A DNA stretch of 64,000 nt, taken from IMG/VR virus record IMGVR_UViG_3300025362_000007, positions 1 through 64,000 of that record. One strand, written 5' to 3'. The notes beneath the pieces were generated by a model. The model did no database searches. It was not told the origin of the DNA and was given only the letters and a program-made list of their open reading frames with translations. The stretch's first letter is position 1; each line of letters starts with the position of its first letter. This DNA is from a virus. Below are positions 352 to 63,818 of this stretch, one piece after another. The translations under genes were made by a program, and so were the position numbers.

Positions 352-3300
352 ATGGAATTTAAGCAGAAGATCAGTGAAGAGATATTTTTTAGAAAATACG
401 CACTACATGGTGAGACAACAGTAGAAGAAGTATTGCAAGGTGTAGCGGAAGAAATTGCTTCCGTAGAAAAAGATAAGGAAAAATGGAAAACAGTATTTTA
501 TGACATAATGGTATCAGGAGAGTTTCTTCCTGCTGGAAGAATATTAGCTAATGCCCGTCCTTTATCTAAAATGAAAAATTACAATAACTGCTTTACTATT
601 GATATAGAAGATTCAATGGAAGGCATTTTTGAGTCATTGAAAGAGGATGCTTTGATTGGTAAAGTTGGAGGAGGAGTTGGATTTAATGCTTCTAAGCTCC
701 GTCCAAAAGGGGCTTACATAAGCAAGGGGGGTGAATCTTCTGGTGTGATGAGTTTCTTAGAAGTTTTTGATACTAGTGCAAAAGCAATCCATACAGGAGG
801 CGGAAGGCGATGTTTACCCGCAGGGACTTCAGTTCATGCAAAAACAGGGTTAAAAAGTATAGAAAATATAGTAATTGAGGATGAAGTTCTTACTTCAGAA
901 GGGTATGAGAAAGTAAGCAATTTTTTTGATCAAGGGGAACAAGAGACTATTGTTATTCATACTAACAACGGTGAATTTGAATGTACAGCTAATCATAAAA
1001 TGGCTGTATTTGATGGACTTTTTTCTTATATTTGGAAAGAAGCGAAAGACTTAAGAAATGGGGATAAACTTGTTTTTGTAGGGAAAACAATAGAAGGACA
1101 ACCCACTGAATTTCCTAAATTTTATTATGAGAAACCAAAACACTCTACTACAACAATAGATATTACTATTCCTACTTTAGACAAGAATAGTGCTTGGTTG
1201 CTTGGACTAATTTTTGGTGATGGATTTGTTTGGACTAATGAAAATAACACGAAGGGTGGGGTTTCTATTGCTTGTGCTAATGTGTATCCAAAAATTATAG
1301 AAAGAGCAGAAAAAGAACTTGAAAAGTTTGGGGCTAATGTTTACGCTAAAGATGGAGATGGTGCTTGTACTAATGTAGTAAGCTATTCCAACCAATTAGG
1401 GATTTTCTTTGGTCAATTTAAAAAAGCAAAAAAAACTCTTATAATCCCCAAATTTATAATGGATGGAACAGTAGAAATTAGAGCAGGATTTATCGCTGGT
1501 GTGTTTGACGCTGATGGTGCTTCTAAAAATAGGCCAATTAGAGTGGTATCTACTGTTTACAAAAAATTTGCAACACAAATTAAATATCTTTTACTTTCTC
1601 TTGGGATTCCTTCTACTGAATATGCTTATGATAGAAGTAAAGATGGGTGGCAAACATTATATAGTATAAATGTTTCTAATGCTGTTGGAGTAAGAAGTTG
1701 GGACAGATTGATTGCCCCCTCTAGTGAAAAATATGTCTCTGGAAGAAAAGATAAAAGGTTTTATCAATCAGGGACTAATGATTTTGGATGGACTAAAGAG
1801 ATGTTTGTGGAAGAAGAAAGAAAAACTAAAAGAAAAGTTTGGTTAAAAAATTCCACAAGTTTAAAGCTCACGTCTTTAGAAAGAGTGATAGGAAGAGAAC
1901 TTCAGTTATACCCAGTAGATTTTCTAGAAATAACTAAAGGAAGAATGGTTCAAACTTATGATATAGAGGTAGAGAATAAACATGAATTTGTAGCAGAAGG
2001 ATTGTTAACTCATAATTCAGCACATATAGTAGTACTAAATGTAGACCATCCAGATATTGAAGAATTTATTCTTTATAAAAAAGGTAGGGAAAATAATGCT
2101 CTTACTCAATTTAATATTAGCGTAGGTATCTCGGATGCTTTTATTTTTGCGGTAGAAAATGATTTAGATTGGAATTTGGTATTTGAAGGTACAGTGTACA
2201 AAACTATAAAAGCTAAAGAATTGTTTGATACTATGACAAAACAAGCATGGTGGTATAATGAACCTGGAGTTTTATTTTTAGATACTGTAGAAGCGGGGAA
2301 TAATGCTCCCCATGCTTTTAAGGTCGATCGCTGTAATCCCTGTGGTGAAATTGTAATGCCAGCTTATAATTTGTGTTGTTTATCTTCTATTAACTTATCT
2401 AAGTTAGTGAAGTATCCATTTACAAATGTAGCTGAGTTTGACTTTGATAGATTTAAAGAAATTATTGAAATTGGGGTTAGGTTCTTAGATAATGTACTCG
2501 ATGCTACCGACTATCCCTTAGATAAAATTGAAGTATTATCTAAAGAATGGAGAAGAATAGGATTGGGTATAACTGGATTGGCTGATGCTTTGCTTAAACT
2601 TAAACTAGCGTATGGTGAAAGAGAAAGTATTGTTATAGTAGATAAAATAGCACACACAATGGCAGAGACAGCATACAATGCTTCTATTGACTTAGCTATA
2701 GAGAAAGGGAGTTTCCCTGCTTTTGATGAAAACATTGGTAATGCTGGCTTTATTCTAAAATTAAGTAAAGAAACTCAAACTAGGATTAAGGTAAATGGAC
2801 TACGTAATATTGGTTTATTAACTATACCCCCAGCAGGCACTATTAGCCTCACATTAGGAAATAATTGTAGTTCGGGAATTGAACCTATATTCTCATTGCA
2901 ATATGATAGAACTGTTCGCCAAAATAATGAAGATACAATCACACAAACTGTGTATGATGATGGATGGTTGGAATATGTGGAATATGCTAATTACAAAGAT
3001 GGTGAACCACTTTCTGAGTATGTAGTAGTATCACATGATGTTTCTATTACTGATGGGATTAAAGTGCAAGCAGCTTTTCAATATTGGATAGATCATAGTA
3101 TAAGCCGAACAATAAACATGCCATTTGAAACTACATTGGAAGATTATAAAGATATTTTTATGTGTGCTTGGAAGATGGGATTAAAAGGTACAACTAGTTT
3201 TCATGAAGGGGCTAGTATGGATGGTATTCTTACCACTAAGAAAACAGAGACTAAGGATGGTACGCTATGGGATAAAATAACCGTACTACCCAATTCTACG

Positions 3301-3804
3301 AAAAGGCCAGAATCATTAGAATGTGATATTTATGAAATGACTGTGAATAAACAGAAAATGTTAGTATTAGTAGGCTTACATAAAGGTAGCCCCTATGAAG
3401 TATTTTTAACAGCCAATAGTGATAATCTAATTGATGTAGAACGAGCCAAGCATGGGGAGATTAGGAAAACAAGTAAGGGAGCGTACAATCTTAGTATTAA
3501 AGGGAAACGAAGTACATTTGTGTTAGAGAATATCACAGCATTGTTTGACGATGATTTTGCTATAATGTGTAGATTAGTTTCTTTGAGTATGCGCCACCAC
3601 ATACCCTTACAGTTTATTATAGATCAACTAAATAAAACTAGTAGGTTTGGTAATTTCTCTAAGATTATGGCTAGAGTATTGAAGAAATATATTAAGGATG
3701 GAGAGAGAGTGATAGCAAAGGAAGTATGCCCCGATTGTAAGGGAGAACTTAGATTTGTGGAAGGTTGTAAAAGTTGCCAAAATTGTGGTTGGAGTAAATG
3801 TTAA
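352..3804 (+). CDS. nrdJ: Class II (B12-dependent) ribonucleotide reductase, intein-containing
   Basis: The precursor is 1150 residues; removing the intein at residues 154-555 leaves 748, normal for NrdJ. The enzyme reduces ribonucleotides to deoxyribonucleotides using adenosylcobalamin. Visible signatures are FLPAGRILANAR near residue 57, the NPCGE loop with downstream LCCLSSINLSKL, GLGITGLADALL, TIPPAGTISLTLGNNCSSGIEP, and the C-terminal zinc-ribbon CPDC...CKSCQNCGWSKC over the last 26 residues, characteristic of the NrdJ family. It heads the replication gene string and would supply dNTPs independently of host regulation. ATG start with an AAGGGG site. No separate beta subunit is seen, as expected for class II. 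Confidence 0.93.
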   Translation: MEFKQKISEEIFFRKYALHGETTVEEVLQGVAEEIASVEKDKEKWKTVFYDIMVSGEFLPAGRILANARPLSKMKNYNNCFTIDIEDSMEGIFESLKEDALIGKVGGGVGFNASKLRPKGAYISKGGESSGVMSFLEVFDTSAKAIHTGGGRRCLPAGTSVHAKTGLKSIENIVIEDEVLTSEGYEKVSNFFDQGEQETIVIHTNNGEFECTANHKMAVFDGLFSYIWKEAKDLRNGDKLVFVGKTIEGQPTEFPKFYYEKPKHSTTTIDITIPTLDKNSAWLLGLIFGDGFVWTNENNTKGGVSIACANVYPKIIERAEKELEKFGANVYAKDGDGACTNVVSYSNQLGIFFGQFKKAKKTLIIPKFIMDGTVEIRAGFIAGVFDADGASKNRPIRVVSTVYKKFATQIKYLLLSLGIPSTEYAYDRSKDGWQTLYSINVSNAVGVRSWDRLIAPSSEKYVSGRKDKRFYQSGTNDFGWTKEMFVEEERKTKRKVWLKNSTSLKLTSLERVIGRELQLYPVDFLEITKGRMVQTYDIEVENKHEFVAEGLLTHNSAHIVVLNVDHPDIEEFILYKKGRENNALTQFNISVGISDAFIFAVENDLDWNLVFEGTVYKTIKAKELFDTMTKQAWWYNEPGVLFLDTVEAGNNAPHAFKVDRCNPCGEIVMPAYNLCCLSSINLSKLVKYPFTNVAEFDFDRFKEIIEIGVRFLDNVLDATDYPLDKIEVLSKEWRRIGLGITGLADALLKLKLAYGERESIVIVDKIAHTMAETAYNASIDLAIEKGSFPAFDENIGNAGFILKLSKETQTRIKVNGLRNIGLLTIPPAGTISLTLGNNCSSGIEPIFSLQYDRTVRQNNEDTITQTVYDDGWLEYVEYANYKDGEPLSEYVVVSHDVSITDGIKVQAAFQYWIDHSISRTINMPFETTLEDYKDIFMCAWKMGLKGTTSFHEGASMDGILTTKKTETKDGTLWDKITVLPNSTKRPESLECDIYEMTVNKQKMLVLVGLHKGSPYEVFLTANSDNLIDVERAKHGEIRKTSKGAYNLSIKGKRSTFVLENITALFDDDFAIMCRLVSLSMRHHIPLQFIIDQLNKTSRFGNFSKIMARVLKKYIKDGERVIAKEVCPDCKGELRFVEGCKSCQNCGWSKC
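811..2016 (+). other. Intein with LAGLIDADG homing endonuclease, inserted in NrdJ
   Basis: Residues 154-555 of the precursor (402 aa). It begins with Cys (CLPAGTSVHAKTG) and ends with LLTHN followed by Ser as the +1 residue. The exteins rejoin as GGRR/SAHIVVLNVDHPD, the uninterrupted RNR sequence. Splicing block B has the TANHK histidine, and block F reads VQTYDIEVENKHEF. The endonuclease has both DOD motifs, LLGLIFGDG (about residue 283) and AGFIAGVFDADG (about 379), each keeping its catalytic aspartate, so it is probably active and mobile. Confidence 0.92.
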
Positions 3805-19823: not shown

Positions 19824-19961
19824 AAAGCAACAGAGCATTTGAAGAAGTTAAAATAGCACACCTGTGATGCCTCTGATGCAAGCATAATTTCATGGGTTAT
19901 ATAGAATTTGGTAGGGATGTTTTATAAATTCTCACCAATGACTCTTAGCAAAGACTAAGGT

Positions 19962-20085
19962 AAGATGAGTAGTGGAATGGTAAACCACAATCATGGTCGG
20001 TAGAGGAAGATACTGCGAACAACAGCCTCAAAGGAAAAGCCGATTGCCCATGACCTAAAAACAGGTTCAATTCCTGTCCATCTTA
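19962..20085 (+). tRNA. tRNA-like gene with about 50-nt insertion in the anticodon region
   Basis: The acceptor AAGATG pairs with CATCTT (A19968 bulged, then G69-C66 pairing). T8 and A9 precede the D arm GTGG/CCAC, whose loop holds GG. The T arm is perfect (ACAGG, loop TTCAATT, CCTGT, 20061-20077) and the discriminator is A20085. Between D and T arms, however, there are about 71 nt instead of 22. TCATGG (19991-19996) pairs with CCATGA (20048-20053) as an anticodon stem enclosing a structured 51-nt loop containing CGG/CCG, GAGG/CCTC and CTG/CAG helices. No group I core is present. No anticodon can be assigned. Confidence 0.5.
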
Positions 20086-20223
20086 ATTTGTCACAGACGT
20101 GTGGATCGAAACTCTTCGCAAGCCTCTTAATAATGCTCAAATGGCGGAGTGGATGAGGGAACGTTAGCCCCAAACTACAACGGAAAAGGGAGTGTAGTTG
20201 ACTGCTGGGAAAGACTAGCTAAA

Positions 20224-20300
20224 GTAAGAATGTGGTGGACACATGGGGTGAGTTAAAGACTTGGGATTCCCCAACTAGCAACACTAGTATTTCTGCTTAC
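20224..20300 (+). ncRNA. Cloverleaf-like element without a T-loop consensus
   Basis: GTAAG 20224-20228 pairs with CTTAC 20296-20300 and encloses a hairpin ATGTG/CACAT, a GGGG/CCCC arm and ACTAG/CTAGT with a 5-nt loop. The shape recalls a tRNA but TTCRA is absent. It follows the same leader sequence as the tRNA-like genes. May be a decayed tRNA. Confidence 0.25.
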
Positions 20301-20326
20301 TTTACGGACACTGGGAAAGACTAGGT

Positions 20327-20419
20327 AGTATGGTGGCTATCTATGAAAATAAATAGTTACTGGGAGTGGTGGCTTAATACGTAGGGTCACCTGTGTGAGT
20401 TCAAATCTTGCCCATACTA
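20327..20419 (+). tRNA. tRNA-like gene with abnormal D and anticodon arms
   Basis: The acceptor is perfect, AGTATGG with CCATACT, and the T arm is GTGAG, TTCAAAT, CTTGC (with wobbles); discriminator A. The D arm lacks the GG loop. A GGTGG/TCACC stem carries a 14-nt loop in place of the usual 7. The octamer TGGTGGCT occurs twice (20331, 20368), flanking a 29-nt segment. No reliable anticodon. Confidence 0.45.
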
Positions 20420-20455
20420 GGCTCTAGCTTTTAGTTAGAGGGAATTATTGCTGTA

Positions 20456-20628
20456 CCATGTATGTACGTAGGGAGTACTAAACGTTAGGCAATCTATAGC
20501 CTAGAAAAAGAGCGGAGGATGGATAAATGAGACTGCGATTCCATAGGAGTAAATTCTACACCGCAAAGATGTTACGTTAAGTTAATAGGAATATTAACAG
20601 CAGAGGGGTTCAACTCCCCTCACATGGT
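20456..20628 (+). tRNA. Class II tRNA-like gene with about 90-nt insertion in the anticodon loop
   Basis: The acceptor CCATGT pairs with ACATGG. The T arm is perfect (AGGGG, TTCAACT, CCCCT, 20604-20620). A long variable arm GTTAATA/TATTAAC (20581-20598) marks it as class II (Leu/Ser/Tyr type), and a D-arm-like GTAC/GTAC hairpin is present. The anticodon stem appears to be AACGT/ACGTT, 20481-20485 with 20574-20578, with 88 nt between the strands. That insert folds on its own (TAGGC/GCCTA, GCGG/CCGC, ATGG/CCAT). It is too short for a group I intron. Confidence 0.5.
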
Positions 20629-20657
20629 AGAATACGACACTTTGGAAAGACAAAGGT

Positions 20658-20757
20658 AGCATAATGGTGGTGTAGGATAACCACACTGGCCAGTTTGGGG
20701 GTGAAGATATCCACTTCGTAAACAACAGAGAAACAGGTTCAAGTCCTGTCTATGCTA
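20658..20757 (+). tRNA. tRNA-like gene with about 26-nt excess in the anticodon region
   Basis: AGCATA pairs with TATGCT, with an A-C mismatch at position 7-66. The D arm is GTGG/CCAC with GG in the loop. The T arm is perfect (ACAGG, TTCAAGT, CCTGT, 20733-20749). There are about 48 nt between D and T arms, with GTTT/AAAC enclosing a smaller hairpin TGAAG/CTTCG. No canonical anticodon arm can be placed directly after the D arm. Confidence 0.5.
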
Positions 20758-20833
20758 AAGGTCGGATAATTACCGAATGAACTACGGAGATTTGGGGTAG
20801 CCGTAGAGAGATTGACAAAATTGCCCATCCATT

Positions 20834-20907
20834 GCTACAGTAGCTCAGTTGGTCAGAGCACGTGACTTGTAATCTCGGTGTCGTCAGTTCGAATCTGACT
20901 TGTAGCT
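20834..20907 (+). tRNA. tRNA-Thr (anticodon TGT)
   Basis: The cloverleaf is complete: acceptor GCTACAG/TTGTAGC, D arm AGCTC...GAGC, anticodon loop CTTGTAA (TGT), T arm GTCAG, TTCGAAT, CTGAC. One T-T mismatch occurs in the anticodon stem. No encoded CCA. Confidence 0.88.
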
Positions 20908-20921
20908 TTTAAGAGTATTTT

Positions 20922-20994
20922 GGAAGTGAGCCTAATGGTGGGAAACTGTCTTGAAAACAGTCGATGGTATCCAACGATGTTCACGTTAGAAGCG
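20922..20994 (+). pseudogene. Degenerate tRNA-Ser-like sequence (TGA)
   Basis: It starts GGAAGTG like the intact tRNA-Ser(TGA) at 21195 and has a perfect anticodon arm ACTGT, CTTGAAA, ACAGT. The downstream sequence lacks a pairable T stem and a matching acceptor 3' strand. Probably a broken copy. Confidence 0.45.
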
Positions 20995-21022
20995 GAACAA
21001 GAGAGTAAGAGAAAGTAAAAAT

Positions 21023-21093
21023 GCATTTGTGGCATATTGGCTGTGCGCTAGCCTTCCAAGCTAGTGAAGAGAGTTCGATTCTCTCCAAGTGCT
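21023..21093 (+). tRNA. tRNA-Gly (anticodon TCC)
   Basis: Acceptor GCATTTG/CAAGTGC, a perfect anticodon stem CTAGC/GCTAG with loop CTTCCAA (TCC), and T arm GAGAG, TTCGATT, CTCTC. No encoded CCA. Confidence 0.88.
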
Positions 21094-21103
21094 TATAGTA
21101 ATA

Positions 21104-21182
21104 GGGGGCGTAGCTCAATCGGCAGAGCACTGGGTGCACCATAACGTGGCAGTGGATAGGAGTTCGAGTCTCCTCGGCTCCT
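21104..21182 (+). tRNA. tRNA-like gene, possibly Met/Ile-derived, with enlarged anticodon loop
   Basis: The D arm (TAGCTCAATCGGCAGAGCA) and T arm (AGGAG, TTCGAGT, CTCCT) are canonical. The acceptor is GGGGGCG/CGGCTCC with one G-G mismatch. The anticodon stem CACTG/CAGTG closes a 17-nt loop instead of 7. ACCATAAC within it suggests a former CAT anticodon, but T33 is lacking. Confidence 0.5.
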
Positions 21183-21194
21183 ATTACTAGTATT

Positions 21195-21279
21195 GGAAGT
21201 GTGTAGCAGAATTGGTATTGCCCTAGTCTTGAAAACTAACGTGGTAAAACACATGGGGGTTCGAATCCCTCCGCTTCCG
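21195..21279 (+). tRNA. tRNA-Ser (anticodon TGA)
   Basis: Acceptor GGAAGTG/CGCTTCC, anticodon loop CTTGAAA (TGA), a long class II variable arm, T arm GGGGG, TTCGAAT, CCCTC, discriminator G as expected for serine. Confidence 0.88.
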
Positions 21280-21283
21280 TATT

Positions 21284-21368
21284 GGAAAGTTGCCAGAGCG
21301 GTAATGGAGCAGATTGCTAATCTGTAGCCTCTTAATTGGGGTCAGGGGTTCGATTCCTCTACTTTCCG
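21284..21368 (+). tRNA. tRNA-Ser (anticodon GCT)
   Basis: Acceptor GGAAAGT/ACTTTCC, anticodon stem GCAGA/TCTGT with loop TTGCTAA (GCT), a long variable arm, loop TTCGATT, discriminator G. It lies 4 nt after tRNA-Ser(TGA). Confidence 0.9.
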
Positions 21369-21669
21369 AATATCGCACTTTGGACTCTTCGGAACAAAGA
21401 GGGTTTAGTCAGCCATAGAGTGACTTTGGAAAGTTGGTGGAAAGGTTTAGGCTATTTTCCTAAGGATGGACGAGGCACTTCAACTAGACGGTGGATTGAC
21501 ACCTACTGGGGTATATGTAATGGCAGAGGGGAAAACAAGCTAGGTAAAATACTAATGGAAATACGGGATGTATTGAGAGAGCAGGAGAGTATGCTATAGC
21601 GCATTCTTAAGATTATGCTTAGCAACGTAATCTATTACATAGTATGGTATTGCATATAAGAAACTAACC
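21369..21669 (+). other. Noncoding stretch after the tRNA array
   Basis: About 300 bp without a credible gene. It opens with a sequence (ATATCGCACTTTGGACTC) resembling the leaders found before the tRNA-like genes at 20300 and 20635, and contains several short GACTTTGG/GGAAAG repeats. No T-arm consensus is visible, so no tRNA is called. Confidence 0.3.
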
Positions 21670-21896: not shown

Positions 21897-22490
21897 GTGT
21901 TATATTCAATAGGGAAATTTGCAAAACAGATAGGGGTAACAACCGCTACACTACGAAATTGGGATGCTAGTGGGGAACTGACCCCACAAAAAGTTACAAA
22001 TGGTGGTACTCGTTATTATTCAGAACAGCAATTAAATAGTTATATGAACAAAACTATTAGTAGCAAAAAAGAGACATATATATATGCAAGAGTATCAAGT
22101 AATAATCAAAAAAAGGATTTGGTAAATCAAGTAGATTTTTTAAGACAATATTGTAATGCAAAAGGGTACATTGTAAATGTATTAACTGATACAGGTAGTG
22201 GATTAAATTATAAAAGAAAAAATTGGAATGTACTACTTGATTTAGTAATTAAGGGCAGTGTAGATCGAATAGTAATAGCGCACAAAGATAGATTTGTTCG
22301 TTTTGGGTGTGACTGGTTTTTCTCTCTTTGTGAAAAACATGGGTGTATTATAGAGGTAGTAAATAATGACACACTAAGCCCCCAAGAAGAAATGGTTCAA
22401 GATTTAATTTCTATTATTCACGTATTCAGTTGCCGTATATATGGGTTACGAAAGTACAAAGAAAAATTACAGAATGATGAAAGCATATAA
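21897..22490 (+). CDS. tnpA: IS607-family serine transposase TnpA
   Basis: 197 residues. Residues 1-50 form a MerR-type HTH (YSIGKFAKQIGVTTATLRNWDASGELTP). The serine-recombinase domain follows: YIYARVSSNNQKKDL with the catalytic serine, then LTDTGSGLNYKRKNW and VDRIVIAHKDRFVRFG. It catalyses excision and insertion through a circular intermediate. GTG start; the 3' end overlaps tnpB. All expected motifs are intact, so the element may be active. Confidence 0.9.
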   Translation: MLYSIGKFAKQIGVTTATLRNWDASGELTPQKVTNGGTRYYSEQQLNSYMNKTISSKKETYIYARVSSNNQKKDLVNQVDFLRQYCNAKGYIVNVLTDTGSGLNYKRKNWNVLLDLVIKGSVDRIVIAHKDRFVRFGCDWFFSLCEKHGCIIEVVNNDTLSPQEEMVQDLISIIHVFSCRIYGLRKYKEKLQNDESI

Positions 22491-23622
22491 AATAGAAATA
22501 AATCCTACAGAGGAACAGAAAACAAAGATAAACAAGACTATGGGGGTTTGTCGTTTTATTTATAATCTATATATTTCTAAAAATAAGGAAGAGTACGAAA
22601 CTACTAAAAAGTTTATAAGTGCCTATGATTTTAGTAAATATATAAATAATGTTTTTATTAAGGAGAATCCTTCCTATGCTTGGATTAAAGATGTATCAAG
22701 TAAATCAGTAAAACAATCTGTATGTAATGCTGAAAAGGCATTTAAATTATTTTTTAATAAAAAGGCATGCTTTCCTAAATACAAGAAAAAGCATGTATCT
22801 AACATAAAAATGTATTTGCCTAAAAACAATAATACAGATTGGGCAATAGAAAGACATAGGGTAAAAATACCCACATTAGGCTTTGTTAGATTAAAAGAAT
22901 TTGGATATATACCTAAGGATGCTGTTGTATCTAGTGGTGCAGTAAGTAAAGAGGCTGATAAGTATTTTGTTTCTATTTTAGTGAAAGAAGATAGGGTATA
23001 TACTAGCAAGAAAGGGAAACAAGCAATAGGAATAGATTTAGGGATAAAAACGTTTGCTGTATGTTCTGACGGCAGAACTTTTAAGAATATAAACAAGACA
23101 GCTAAGATAAAAGCACTAGAAAAGAAATTAAAAAAAGAACAAAAAGCTTTCAGTAGAAAGTTAGGATCTCGAAAAAAGGAGGAGTCTAATAAAAATTTAG
23201 ATAAAAATAGAATACGAGTACAAAGATTACATAGGCGGTTACGTAATATTCGTCAAGAATATGTAAAATTTGTGGTAAATTCACTTGTGAAAGCCAATAA
23301 TTTACCTGTATACATTTCTATTGAAGATTTGAATGTCAATGGTATGATGAAAAACAGACATTTGAGCAAAGCTATCCAAAAGCAAAATTTTTATTATTTT
23401 AGAACTAAACTTATAGAAAAATGCAACAAATATGATGTTGAGGTAAGGGTTATAGACAGATTCTACCCAAGCAGTAAAACTTGTAGTATTTGCGGAGCAT
23501 ATAAATCTGATTTGAAGTTAAGTGATAGAGTATATAAATGTGGGTGTGGTGGTAGTTTAGATAGGGATTTAAATGCAAGTATAAATATTAGGGATTGCAA
23601 GATATATAAAGTAGCAATTTAA
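22477..23622 (+). CDS. tnpB: TnpB RNA-guided endonuclease
   Basis: 381 residues from the second of two adjacent ATGs, giving the standard MKAYKIEINPTEEQ opening. The RuvC catalytic residues are present in order: GIDLGIKTFAV (Asp), ISIEDLNVNGMM (Glu), and DRDLNASINI (Asp). A zinc-finger CSICG...KCGCGG sits between the last two. TnpB cleaves donor DNA guided by a right-end omegaRNA, promoting transposon retention. The start overlaps tnpA. Confidence 0.9.
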   Translation: MKAYKIEINPTEEQKTKINKTMGVCRFIYNLYISKNKEEYETTKKFISAYDFSKYINNVFIKENPSYAWIKDVSSKSVKQSVCNAEKAFKLFFNKKACFPKYKKKHVSNIKMYLPKNNNTDWAIERHRVKIPTLGFVRLKEFGYIPKDAVVSSGAVSKEADKYFVSILVKEDRVYTSKKGKQAIGIDLGIKTFAVCSDGRTFKNINKTAKIKALEKKLKKEQKAFSRKLGSRKKEESNKNLDKNRIRVQRLHRRLRNIRQEYVKFVVNSLVKANNLPVYISIEDLNVNGMMKNRHLSKAIQKQNFYYFRTKLIEKCNKYDVEVRVIDRFYPSSKTCSICGAYKSDLKLSDRVYKCGCGGSLDRDLNASINIRDCKIYKVAI

Positions 23623-23715
23623 AGCATTTATATATGTGTACTGTGGGCTAACACAGGAATTTACGATTGTGGACATCTACACAAACAATAGTAGCATTAT
23701 GCGAGATTGGGGTGG
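23623..23715 (+). ncRNA. Probable omegaRNA scaffold at the IS607 right end
   Basis: Just after the tnpB stop, CTGTG/CACAG (23641-23656) and TTGTG/CACAA (23667-23684) form two hairpins before the element's estimated right end. Position and hairpins match where TnpB guide RNAs are encoded; the guide would begin at the right border. Confidence 0.5.
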
Positions 23716-23774
23716 TTGAAGCAATAAAACTCAAAAATATATAATTTTATAGATTTTTGTTAGCAGGAATTGGT

Positions 23775-24209
23775 ATGATATTTGAAGTAGGAAAGAGTTA
23801 TAAGTATGTTGGGGGTAATCCAGATTACTTTCGTAGTGATGGTGAGATGGATTACATAAAACAAGGGACGCACACTGTTGTCTTTAGTGAGAAATGTCCA
23901 GGTAAGTACGATGTACTATTTGCGGACGACCCAAATGGGCGCTCGTGGTACGTAGACTCAAAAGACTTTGTTCGTGTGCTTGCCCGAGGTGATAGAGTCA
24001 CAGTCTGGGACATTGAGAAGCAATTTGCAGATAAAGCACTATTTTTGGGATATTTTGATGAAGCCCTATATCCGTATGTTGCAATGGTGGATGGTGACGT
24101 GTTACCCCAAGGTTTTATGCACGCAATACTGGAAGAAGACACTAAGCTAGTAGAACTTCAACTGGCGCTTACTGCTGCCCAGAAAGCAATTGACGATTAT
24201 ATAAGATAA
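23775..24209 (+). CDS. Hypothetical protein
   Basis: 144 residues from the ATG at 23775. The N-terminus MIFEVGKSYKYVGGNPDYF looks like a small beta-barrel of the kind seen in phage proteins, with a second strand-rich repeat RGDRVTVWDIEKQFADKALF and a helical tail. It is the first gene after the transposon, 9 bp before the tmRNA-like RNA. No family recognised. Confidence 0.55.
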   Translation: MIFEVGKSYKYVGGNPDYFRSDGEMDYIKQGTHTVVFSEKCPGKYDVLFADDPNGRSWYVDSKDFVRVLARGDRVTVWDIEKQFADKALFLGYFDEALYPYVAMVDGDVLPQGFMHAILEEDTKLVELQLALTAAQKAIDDYIR

Positions 24210-24218
24210 GAGATTTAC

Positions 24219-24297
24219 GGGGGTAAAATTGGTTTCGACAACTATTAAGTCTTGAAAGAGAAATAGTTGGAAGTGGGTTCGATTCCCACTTGCTCCA
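24219..24297 (+). ncRNA. tmRNA-like RNA lacking the tag reading frame (mini-ssrA)
   Basis: The 5' end, GGGGGTA then AATTGGTTTCGACA, matches the GGGG...GGxTTCGAC signature at the start of bacterial tmRNA, which has no D stem. The 3' end has the T arm GTGGG, TTCGATT, CCCAC and acceptor strand TTGCTCC with discriminator A, including the G3-U70 wobble used by alanyl-tRNA synthetase. Positions 5-68 and 6-67 are mismatched. Between them only a 7-bp stem AACTATT/AATAGTT (24240-24246 with 24262-24268) and a 15-nt loop remain; pseudoknots and the tag frame are absent. No encoded CCA. Confidence 0.7.
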
Positions 24298-24324
24298 AAT
24301 TAGTACATAGAAGGAAGTAGAAAT

Positions 24325-61325: not shown

Positions 61326-63818
61326 TTATGATAATACTGTTCGTATTTTTCGAGAGCGATGCACTTTATGCACTACTCTATATTTGATTTCATCGACAAC
61401 GTGATCCTCTTGTTCTTTAGCTATTTCTTCAATCCTATTCTCATCTCTCATAATTATAGGCAAAGTTCTAGCTACATGCACATTCGTATTGAAAAAAAAG
61501 ATACACTTCCTGTCCATATTAGGATAATTCAAAGAATTTTTCAAGTGAGTCCTCACCATCTCCCATCCTATTACATTAGAACCAGCTCCCTTTGATGCTT
61601 TTGTAAACACATCAAACAGTTTGTATGACTCTTTTCCATAGTAGCCAGCGTTAACTTCTTGTGCAATAGACATATATGAAGAATCATATTTTGGATTCTT
61701 ATTCCATAACTGTGTATCGGCTGGCCCAGGATATACTTTGTGGATATTTTTAAATACAGGGTTGCTCTCTTCCATCTGCTTAACTCCGTGTCCTACTTCA
61801 TATCCAGTGAGGCCACACCCTTCATTCTCTTCACCATTCCAACCATACCATTCTGCTATTCTAAATAAAATACCAGCAGGATATGTGTATTTACTACCAT
61901 CTTTCAGGGTAACTTCTGTACCATCACTTTCTGCGTACCAACCAATAGAGAACGGAGCAGAAGAACCCCAATCGAGTGCTCTATCAACATACCAAGAAGA
62001 AGGTATTTCAAAAGGCTCAATCATGTGTACTTTTTCGTCCCACACATCATCAAACATCCCCCCTGCTATAGCATCCCAATCTCCTTCTAATAGCATTTTA
62101 GCTGTAGCAGCATTTCCAACACCCATAACTCTGCCTTCATACTCTTCTTTGTCAATAGAAGGATTATCGTCTAATGTAGCAGGAATAAATTGTCGCAACA
62201 TACCCCCCATAGTCTTAGGCATCTTTACAATAGTAAGTGGGGGAGCTACTTTTACAAACTCTTTTCTTATTTTTGAATGAGATATACCTCCTGGGTTAGT
62301 GCCTAAAAGTATACGGGGAAAGAAATTCTCCCCCCATTTTTGTCTAAAAGCCAAAGGTGGTTGCCATGTTTTAGGTGTACGAACACGAGTACGGAGATAT
62401 GTATATTTACTCCACGTAAAGTGTGTGGCCTCATCTATCATCAAAGCATCCATCTCAGCCCCTTGATACTTGTACTTATCTTTCTCATACAAACAGTGAC
62501 AGAGGTGAATAATACTTCCTCCCATATAGCCCCCACGAGGCCCATTCTTAAACTGAATCTGATAGTCAGAGTTATTTATCTTTACAAATTTATCATCCAC
62601 AGCATCACCCAGTAGTTCATGGAATGACCCTTTACCTGTCATATGATTATCTTCCAATTCTTTACGAGTTAAACGAAACAAATATATTTGTGCTCCTGGA
62701 GCTTCCATAGCCCATGTAATTGCAGCCACACGCATAAGAAAACTATTGTGTGTGGGAACTAATTCCTTACCTGCTAAGTATGTATGATTAGGGCTATCTA
62801 CCTGAATACACTGCTTTGCTCTCGCTGGTATTCTGCGTATAGCCTTAATATAGTATCTACTATTTTTTTCTGTACGCTTCTTCTCAGGTAGTTTGTCTTG
62901 CTCTAATTTTATTCTAGAAAATTCTTTTGTGCCCTCAAATCTTACCCGTACTTCATACTCCCCTTTGTAGTTATTGAACTCAAACTCATTATGTGAACTT
63001 GTAATAGCACTACGTATCCCTAAAGAACGAACTAGTTCAACTATATCTTCGGCAAACTTCTGTGTTCTACAGTGGATACCTATTCTACTTTGTTTTAATT
63101 CAGGGCTACCTGATATATCTATAATCCCTTGAAGAACAGAAAGCCTTTGTTCTCTATCCCCATACTTATACATATCGGGAATTACTTTGTTATCTTCGGA
63201 CAAACCTACTAAAGCTATGTGCTCATAGAAGTCCTTTGGGTTGGTATATTTCCCACCACAATAATCAGCTAATTGCCAAGTACTTCCCATAGCACTTGCT
63301 TGTTGTACCATGAGATCCTTTTTACGTTTTTTTAAAAACCCACCATTACAAAACATCCCTACTAAGTAGGGGTCAACTGGAAAATCTTTTGTTGGAAAAT
63401 TTAAAAAAGGTGCTCCCTTAACTATAAACTTACTTCTATGAGTATCTGTAAACAACCCTTCTCTAAGTAACTGCTCTGTGGTCAATAAAGCATTACGCCT
63501 TCCTAACCGTCTTTCAACAAGCCACCCATGCCTGCCATCGCATACTAACGTAGTACCACGATTAAATTCTACCTCATAAGTTTTGGATTTTGTATTTATA
63601 GCACTTTTTGCTAGTACATTGCATAAATTACCATTTCCCCCAAATACTTTATCCCCTACTTCTAAAGTTTCCATTGTTTTCCAACAAGTATCAGTGAGTA
63701 TTGGTGTGTGTATGTCTAATGCTTTTCCCCCACCTACAGCCCCACCATACAATATTTCATTCGCAGGGGAGGTAAGTGCAATTATTTGCTTGGGGTGAAG
63801 TTCAATATTTAGTGCCAT
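61326..63818 (-). CDS. terL: Terminase large subunit, intein-containing
   Basis: 830-residue precursor, 504 after removal of the intein at 33-358. The rejoined N-terminus reads ILYGGAVGGGKSFLMRV, a complete Walker A. Walker B is DALMIDEATHF. The C-terminal RNase-H-like nuclease shows VDRALDWGSSAPFSIGWYAE (first Asp) and VYPGPADTQLW (second), with a late acidic residue expected near the DRKCIFFF region. It powers DNA packaging and cuts concatemers. Packaging depends on splicing, since the intein interrupts the ATP-binding loop. Confidence 0.92.
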   Translation of the reverse strand: MALNIELHPKQIIALTSPANEILYGGAVGGGKALDIHTPILTDTCWKTMETLEVGDKVFGGNGNLCNVLAKSAINTKSKTYEVEFNRGTTLVCDGRHGWLVERRLGRRNALLTTEQLLREGLFTDTHRSKFIVKGAPFLNFPTKDFPVDPYLVGMFCNGGFLKKRKKDLMVQQASAMGSTWQLADYCGGKYTNPKDFYEHIALVGLSEDNKVIPDMYKYGDREQRLSVLQGIIDISGSPELKQSRIGIHCRTQKFAEDIVELVRSLGIRSAITSSHNEFEFNNYKGEYEVRVRFEGTKEFSRIKLEQDKLPEKKRTEKNSRYYIKAIRRIPARAKQCIQVDSPNHTYLAGKELVPTHNSFLMRVAAITWAMEAPGAQIYLFRLTRKELEDNHMTGKGSFHELLGDAVDDKFVKINNSDYQIQFKNGPRGGYMGGSIIHLCHCLYEKDKYKYQGAEMDALMIDEATHFTWSKYTYLRTRVRTPKTWQPPLAFRQKWGENFFPRILLGTNPGGISHSKIRKEFVKVAPPLTIVKMPKTMGGMLRQFIPATLDDNPSIDKEEYEGRVMGVGNAATAKMLLEGDWDAIAGGMFDDVWDEKVHMIEPFEIPSSWYVDRALDWGSSAPFSIGWYAESDGTEVTLKDGSKYTYPAGILFRIAEWYGWNGEENEGCGLTGYEVGHGVKQMEESNPVFKNIHKVYPGPADTQLWNKNPKYDSSYMSIAQEVNAGYYGKESYKLFDVFTKASKGAGSNVIGWEMVRTHLKNSLNYPNMDRKCIFFFNTNVHVARTLPIIMRDENRIEEIAKEQEDHVVDEIKYRVVHKVHRSRKIRTVLS
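62745..63722 (-). other. Class 3-like intein in TerL Walker A with degenerate endonuclease
   Basis: Residues 33-358 (326 aa), ALDIHTPILT to LVPTHN, with Ser at +1. Residue 1 is Ala rather than Cys or Ser. The W-C-T set of class 3 inteins can be read: HGWLV in block B, RAKQCIQVDSPNHTYL in block F, and VPTHN in block G. LAGLIDADG-like helices are YLVGMFCNGGF and VLQGIIDISGS; the first lacks its catalytic Asp (CNGG for GDG), so the endonuclease is probably inactive. Confidence 0.85.

Follow-up and report, generated by a model that had tools for sequence, protein, structure and literature searches.

The outer half of a tRNA is recognised by RNase P, RNase Z, the CCA-adding enzyme, EF-Tu and elbow-binding proteins. 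A known RNA in which this half is kept and the anticodon domain is replaced is tmRNA (SsrA; RF00023), and, of the phage elements described here (E1 to E6), E1-E4 share this layout as well as, presumably, a tRNA-like maturation and charging. They differ from tmRNA in size, with about 93-174 nt for E1-E4 compared to 300-400 nt, and the tmRNA combination of the GGUUCGAC D-loop signature and G3.U70 is not found in E1-E4, which lack this signature as well as an RF00023 match and a known tag frame; the only RF00023 match in the analysed DNA lies at about 24220-24298. Phage tRNA arrays, including those with defence-evading tRNAs (PMC11555353), correspond to the locus in genomic setting and outer arms, whereas E1, E2, E4 and their relatives lack the decoding arm and possess a dedicated leader hairpin. 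The engineered tRNA scaffold, in which recombinant RNA is carried in the anticodon arm of a tRNA whose ends protect and mature it (PMC3753655), is man-made, while the phage elements occur naturally in phages and are diverse. Novel cloverleaves are also known from allo-tRNAs (mentioned in PMC7590224), whose fold is likewise non-standard but which retain an anticodon loop and decode. Finally, abiF RNA (RF03085) is, like the elements, a structured small RNA borne by the phage with no recognised toxin nearby, but represents a distinct motif which gives no match within E1, E2, E4 or E6. A search of the open-access literature yielded no description of such elements, of their leader or of phage mini-tmRNAs; such absence is not proof of novelty. 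E1, E2, E4 and probably E6 apparently belong to a so far undescribed viral RNA class.

The window, i.e., the whole stretch of DNA analysed, comprises 64 kb out of a 70.85-kb IMG/VR virus record of a tailed phage encoding a DNA polymerase, a clamp loader, a Dda-like helicase, a portal protein and a tape measure protein. Close relatives of this phage were found neither by megablast of 18 kb nor with the clamp loader in IMG/VR, a T-arm pattern or blastn of the array, and the GenBank phages contain no near relative; all relatives of the portal protein show less than 60% identity (28-29% among the matches listed). The gene for the large subunit of ribonucleotide reductase (352-3801) is split by an intein with a homing endonuclease, and the terminase gene (61326-63818) may contain a second intein interruption. 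The RNA region at 19.9-21.4 kb harbors no convincing gene and has a GC content of 42-44%, compared to a window average of 36%. Between the array and a mini-tmRNA located about 3.5 kb from it, an inserted element is present at 21897-23727, consisting of an IS607-like serine recombinase, TnpB and a RAGATH-18 RNA directly 3' of the TnpB gene. The features of the region are listed in Table 1.

Table 1. RNA features of the array and its surroundings (window coordinates).
Feature	Position	Strand	Basis and remarks
UGAC leader hairpin of E1	19939..19960	+	TGAC + TCTTAG-CAAAGA-CTAAGG; loop variant CAAAGA
E1, tRNA-shaped RNA, 124 nt	19962..20085	+	R1 31.6 bits, E=1.2e-5; Rfam tRNA 22.5 bits
abiF-family RNA	20114..20150	+	RF03085 46.6 bits (gathering 37)
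UGAC leader hairpin of E6	20199..20219	+	TGACT GCTGG-GAAAGA-CTAGC
E6, closed cloverleaf-like RNA, 9-bp closing stem, three internal arms	20220..20304	+	script-found stem; fold z -2.1
UGAC-type leader hairpin of E2	20306..20324	+	GGACA CTGG-GAAAGA-CTAG; 4-bp stem
E2, tRNA-shaped RNA, 93 nt	20327..20419	+	R1 31.3 bits, E=1.4e-5
E3, tRNA-like ends, ~97 nt extra	about 20455..20628	+	acceptor/T-arm scan; R1 partial match 11.6 bits
UGAC-type leader hairpin of E4	20635..20655	+	CGACA CTTTG-GAAAGA-CAAAG
E4, tRNA-shaped RNA, 100 nt, ~24 nt extra	20658..20757	+	R1 27.8 bits, E=1e-4; acceptor 6/7
Decoding tRNA-Thr(TGT)	20834..20907	+	ARAGORN
Ser(TGA)-like relic: anticodon arm intact, T arm lost	20922..20990	+	read from sequence; fold
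Decoding tRNA-Gly(TCC)	21023..21093	+	ARAGORN
E5, ordinary tRNA body, 79 nt, ~10 nt extra	21104..21182	+	RF00005 43.1 bits; R1 9.7 bits
tRNA-Ser(TGA)	21195..21279	+	ARAGORN
tRNA-Ser(GCT)	21283..21369	+	ARAGORN
Mini-tmRNA: tRNA-like domain, G3.U70, A73, short closing hairpin	24220..24297	+	RF00023 54.1 bits over 79 nt; z -3.05

The initial annotation had named five elements (E1-E5) with matching acceptor strands and TTCRANY T loops next to four normal tRNAs; paired acceptors and T loops are indeed present in all five, and ARAGORN calls the Thr, Gly and two Ser tRNAs. The signal of the array is real and not due to chance, as a scan for acceptor, T arm and D arm yields seven rows in the window, all at 20.6-21.4 kb, compared to 0-1 per 64 kb in Markov-shuffled windows. 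The list was incomplete in that the array also contains E6 and the Ser-like relic. The acceptor of E1 consists of seven pairs with one bulged A, the D loop contains GG, the T arm reads ACAGG-TTCAATT-CCTGT, and about 48 nt extra (counted, as for all of E1-E5, from the total length relative to a normal tRNA) replace the anticodon arm. E2 has a fully paired acceptor (AGTATGG/CCATACT, 7/7) and about 17 nt extra; its D region is non-canonical, so the good D arms claimed for several elements do not extend to E2. E4 is probably a paralogue of E1, as suggested by their similar D and T arms (repeat D3, 86% over 28 nt). The covariance model alignment places A1-U72 with A73 in E1, E2 and E4; in E3 and E6 the geometry is too ambiguous for the same assignment. 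The end features of decoding tRNAs (7-bp acceptor, TTCRANY T arm, discriminator) are recognisable in E1, E2, E4 and E5 if one mismatch or bulge is allowed. In E3, the acceptor has 6/7 pairs with a 5-bp T stem and 7/7 if the T stem is counted as 6 bp, and E6 does not show these end features, containing no TTCRANY T loop. A 5-bp anticodon stem with a 7-nt loop and U33 is absent from the best folds of E1, E2 and E4 and from the fold of E3, and ARAGORN makes no call. The claim that the inserts fold on their own holds weakly, since the folds of whole elements are mildly better than those of shuffled sequences (z of -1.0, -1.8 and -2.1 for E1, E2 and E4, but +0.4 for E5).

Relatives were collected from IMG/VR with a pattern of GTGGCG.AAT and GGTTCRANTCC spaced 60-90 nt apart (about 48 in a normal tRNA-Leu). 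Among the matches listed, 129 places carry this D-arm/T-arm pattern, and 110 of these show at least six of seven acceptor pairs, although the pattern leaves acceptor pairing free. The scan provided at least 104 distinct Leu-like elements of 98-128 nt with 7-bp acceptors; a core set of 72 excludes those of loci L303, L309 and L312, which resemble decoding tRNAs with long variable arms. The acceptor, D and T pairs of 60 aligned elements are 99.8% standard, and two-sided changes occur in 101 cells, compared to 14.5 (sd 3) after shuffling and 13-24 after sliding, with variation on both sides in every acceptor pair except one and in three T-stem pairs. As the relatives were found by a D/T-arm pattern and then filtered for acceptors, their conservation is partly built in: the identities of the D and T arms are partly fixed by the search and pairing was filtered, while compensation was neither required nor filtered. 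This strong compensation was measured in elements of unrelated phages, as no close relatives of the present phage were found for an alignment of its own elements, and there it does not correspond to the random decay of all arms that would have marked plain pseudogenes.

The inserts of the relatives behave differently from the arms, with a mean pairwise identity of 51% compared to 50% for shuffled sequences and 91% for the arms. They are modestly structured (mean z -0.80, s.e. 0.12 relative to shuffles); a helix two nt 5' of the T arm, resembling a class II variable arm, shows five Watson-Crick pairs in 36.5% of cases compared to 6.8% after swapping, and the 5' end of the insert pairs with itself in 26% compared to 18% after swapping. 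A pseudoknot between the 5' part of the insert and the variable-arm loop was considered and rejected, as its excess is weak (11.5 compared to 10.6 shuffled and 10.3 swapped). At the position of the anticodon arm, only two of the 72 core relatives form a stem of 5 bp with a loop of 7 nt. In the outer half, U8, A14-A15, GG in the D loop, the TTC loop, U48 and A73 are retained. The acceptor AGTCAGG is found in 57 of 104 relatives and is absent from the 15 acceptors most often seen in 101 normal tRNA-Leu, and A1-U72 with A73 is present in 61 of 104, compared to 5.9% of 984 normal tRNAs. As no more than four contigs in a set of 85,000 species genomes, all four from MAGs, match the strict pattern, the Leu-like class appears to be mainly viral. 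One unannotated Leu-like element of 93 nt (R1 49 bits) is located at 1496-1588 of L382, Sulfitobacter phage phiCB2047-B, overlapping a hypothetical CDS.

A covariance model built from the Leu-like relatives with no window sequence (R1) identifies E1, E2 and E4 in the 64 kb, at the scores shown in Table 1, and does not recover E3, E5 or E6 as members. E1 and E2 rank above the normal tRNAs of the window and E4 is level with one Ser tRNA. With the Rfam tRNA model, E1 and E2 (26.8 bits) both remain under the cut-off and E4 is not listed. The Ser tRNA at about 21284 follows the opposite trend (Rfam 54.5, R1 16.6 bits), which is less clear for that at 21195 (Rfam 35.2, R1 27.8 bits). The window elements reach modest R1 scores; one Ser tRNA equals E4, and E2 has no D arm.

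Directly 5' of E1, E6, E2 and E4, and not of E3, E5 or the four tRNAs, a leader hairpin is located, which in the relatives follows the motif TGAC-N-(5 bp)-GAAAGA-(5 bp), comprises 22 nt and ends 3-6 nt 5' of position 1. The window leaders include variants in loop (E1), stem and 5' motif (E2, GGAC) or 5' motif (E4, CGAC), and within the whole 70.85-kb record leaders occur only at 19943-20655. In 3.54 Mb chosen without reference to the motif, 22 GAC-preceded GAAAGA hairpins were counted, compared to 0-3 for each of 14 permuted loops; the stem shows 26 compensated cells compared to 6.7, with pairing itself demanded for detection. IMG/VR was also probed with one version of the leader stem, bringing the total to at least 145 distinct leaders, of which 32 precede tRNA-like elements uncalled by ARAGORN, 19 decoding tRNAs, 30 RNAs closed by 9 bp, 29 CDS starts and 35 something else. 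The 32 leader-led tRNA-like elements contain A1-U72 in 23 cases, A73 in 29 and both in 20, again to be compared with 5.9% of normal tRNAs for both.

Because the leader is found 5' of decoding tRNAs and CDSs as well, it does not define a function and should rather be regarded, as far as its placements indicate, as a cis element of general use in phage RNA units. Its conservation is limited to about 25 nt, and a reading as sigma-70 promoter was discarded, as neither a -10 region nor any other conserved block is present beyond the hairpin. General enrichment of upstream hairpins in core class-A elements is marginal at best (37.5% compared to 27% (sd 4.6) shuffled and 28% for normal tRNAs), and only the GAAAGA leader is distinct. 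Lambda-type boxB, located 5' of transcribed units, likewise combines a stem of 5 bp with a purine loop rich in GA; compared by description, the leader differs from it by the six-nt GAAAGA loop and the 5' UGAC. In loci L388 (8751-9062, minus strand), L389, L391, L393, L395 and L459, the leader is followed by other closed-stem RNAs, e.g., ACTATCAAG...CTTGATAGT, with tandem leader units of about 78 nt in the 322-kb phage of L388. Several closed RNAs start exactly at the 3' base of the leader, which suggests processing or initiation at this point. In L394, L410, L414, L417, L466 and others, the leader lies mostly 17-37 nt 5' of start codons of phage genes, placements from which it would be a general phage expression or processing element. 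In L503, a RAGATH-1 hammerhead ribozyme (570-642) is located 5' of two UGAC-type leaders in the crAss-like phage cr272_1. Culturable phages that combine the leader with non-decoding tRNA-like elements include the Vibrio phages 1.285.O and 1.012.O (host V. lentus) and Iodobacter phage PhiPLPE.

Related units with covarying acceptor and T stems, a missing anticodon arm and a conserved leader thus occur in many unrelated phages, and the recurrence of the same design, often behind the same hairpin, argues for a working class rather than broken tRNA genes. As judged from sequence comparison, these units very probably constitute a conserved, functional and non-decoding RNA class. For the window itself, E1, E2, E4 and probably E6 are best interpreted as genes for non-decoding, tRNA-scaffolded phage ncRNAs, a reading to which we assign a probability of about 0.6. 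The suggestion of tRNA-shaped RNAs without a decoding function is thereby borne out for E1, E2 and E4 through their related elements and common leader; E3, whose membership is uncertain in view of the missing UGAC leader, is less clear, as are E5 and the Ser-like relic.

It is unlikely, but to be considered first, that the elements are pseudogenes, i.e., phage tRNAs in which indels have disrupted the anticodon arm while the other arms have not yet decayed. Defective copies are common in phage tRNA arrays, E3 and E6 deviate from tRNA geometry, and E5 shows an ordinary tRNA body with G1-C72 (T73, acceptor 6/7 with one G.U, a 17-nt anticodon-loop region and no UGAC leader) and is probably an altered or decaying tRNA. 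The relic at 20922-20990 is clearly degenerate and shows that ordinary decay is present in the array too; the statement of the initial annotation that general decay does not explain the array was therefore overstated, as its filter on intact acceptor and T arms would have concealed this relic. Decay is the best reading for the relic and a fair one for E5. For E1, E2 and E4, however, selective decay is opposed by the compensated acceptor and T stems combined with unrelated inserts in the relatives from unrelated phages, by the shared acceptor of these relatives, unseen among common tRNA-Leu acceptors, and by the restriction of the conserved leader within the record to the four window elements.

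Similarly improbable is the view that the elements are decoys, which would titrate host tRNA-directed toxins, tRNA-modifying enzymes, synthetases or EF-Tu via the tRNA elbow, the insert serving as filler. It is known that tRNAs can help phages to counter defences that cleave tRNA (PMC11555353), the conserved outer half of the relatives (U8, A14, D-loop GG, TTC loop, A73) would suit such a function, and an abiF RNA adjoins. A pure decoy, however, would have no need of an insert of about 60 nt, and the inserts are somewhat structured and retain the helix beside the T arm. In its literal form, as decoys against anticodon nucleases, the proposal is unlikely because no anticodon loop is present for cleavage; decoys aimed at other factors that bind tRNA are conceivable.

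That a small intron of a new type sits in the anticodon arm, its removal yielding a decoding tRNA, is very unlikely: ARAGORN in its intron-aware mode (-i) fits E1 with a 46-nt intron, but leaves its identity ambiguous (Gln CTG or Pro CGG) and E2, E3 and E4 uncalled, while its other calls, 21104-21279 (E5 plus the next tRNA) and 24077-24298, merge neighbouring genes. Moreover, the relatives show neither a uniform insertion point nor a flanking 5-bp stem, and the host is presumably bacterial; to our knowledge, bacteria have no tRNA splicing endonuclease. Least probable are decoding tRNAs of unusual shape, with an odd cloverleaf or a very long variable arm in the manner of allo-tRNAs. In favour of this reading, L309 (U33, CAT) and L303 and L312 (U33, GTT, G73, encoded CCA) show 7-nt anticodon loops and long variable arms; against it, an anticodon-arm geometry is absent from nearly all core relatives, from the best folds of E1, E2 and E4 and from E3. 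The elements of L303 (3439-3548) and L312 (410-517) are probable tRNA-Asn(GTT)-type genes with U1-A72, a Leu-like D arm and a very long variable arm.

The surroundings of the array contain two further types of structured RNA. Between E1 and E6 lies an abiF RNA, a motif that acts as the RNA antitoxin in AbiF systems; no AbiF-like gene was found among the neighbouring ORFs. At least 79 IMG/VR contigs contain this motif; 32 of these show tRNAs at a distance of up to 3 kb, and in 51 of the 79 no ORF of more than 150 aa starts within 900 nt downstream, as judged by ORF length and with some loci incomplete; at L060 and L013, abiF RNAs are embedded in similar islands of long tRNA-like elements. The abiF RNA of C. 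difficile neutralises AbiF in trans (PMC12373285), and an abiF RNA is known in cyanophage S-CREM1 (PMC9964418); phage-borne abiF RNAs may act as counter-antitoxins. The mini-tmRNA at 24220 has no tag frame, no pseudoknots and no mRNA-like domain, and thus lacks this part of a tmRNA. It belongs to a set of at least 79 unique elements of 62-92 nt from viral contigs, all with G3.U70 and A73, of which U70 and A73 were required by the second search pattern, while about 37 of the 79 derive from loci of the first pattern, which required neither. None of the 79 is preceded by the leader. Carrying the alanine determinant without a tag, these RNAs might vie with the tmRNA of the host for SmpB and for stalled ribosomes.

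Taken together, a unit of the preferred type, a non-decoding tRNA-scaffolded RNA, would consist of a short UGAC-GAAAGA hairpin, a few nt and an RNA with the outer half of a tRNA, formed by the acceptor and usually the D and T arms, in which a variable sequence replaces the anticodon domain. The leader would probably mark the start of the RNA as a processing or initiation signal, and the tRNA-like ends would provide maturation and stability via RNase P, RNase Z and CCA addition, possibly also charging with leucine. LeuRS disregards the anticodon and recognises tRNA-Leu via A14-A15, U48 and A73; as the relatives keep these positions, they may be leucylated, whereas E1 and E4 contain A48 in place of U48 before the T stem, making leucylation of the window copies doubtful. 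The variable insert would be the active cargo and would most likely serve host takeover or counter-defence as a regulatory RNA or a decoy. This role is a first guess prompted by the abiF RNA between E1 and E6 and the nearby tag-less mini-tmRNA; counter-defence is tentatively proposed from this genomic context, which is an association and not proof. Equally tentative is the idea of a natural expression scaffold, in which leader and tRNA-like ends would carry fast-changing cargo, forming islands of counter-defence or takeover RNAs that include abiF and elsewhere tag-less alanine-type mini-tmRNAs.

If the interpretation is correct, some of the phage genes now recorded as tRNA pseudogenes or, in the case of Vibrio phage 1.285.O, under 'tRNA-OTHER, anticodon ???' would represent a functional class of RNA equipped with a leader element of its own. 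The combination of leader, A1-U72 with A73 and a missing anticodon arm provides a search handle for phage ncRNAs in culturable phages, and phage tRNA arrays would become connected with RNA-based counter-defence in a testable manner.
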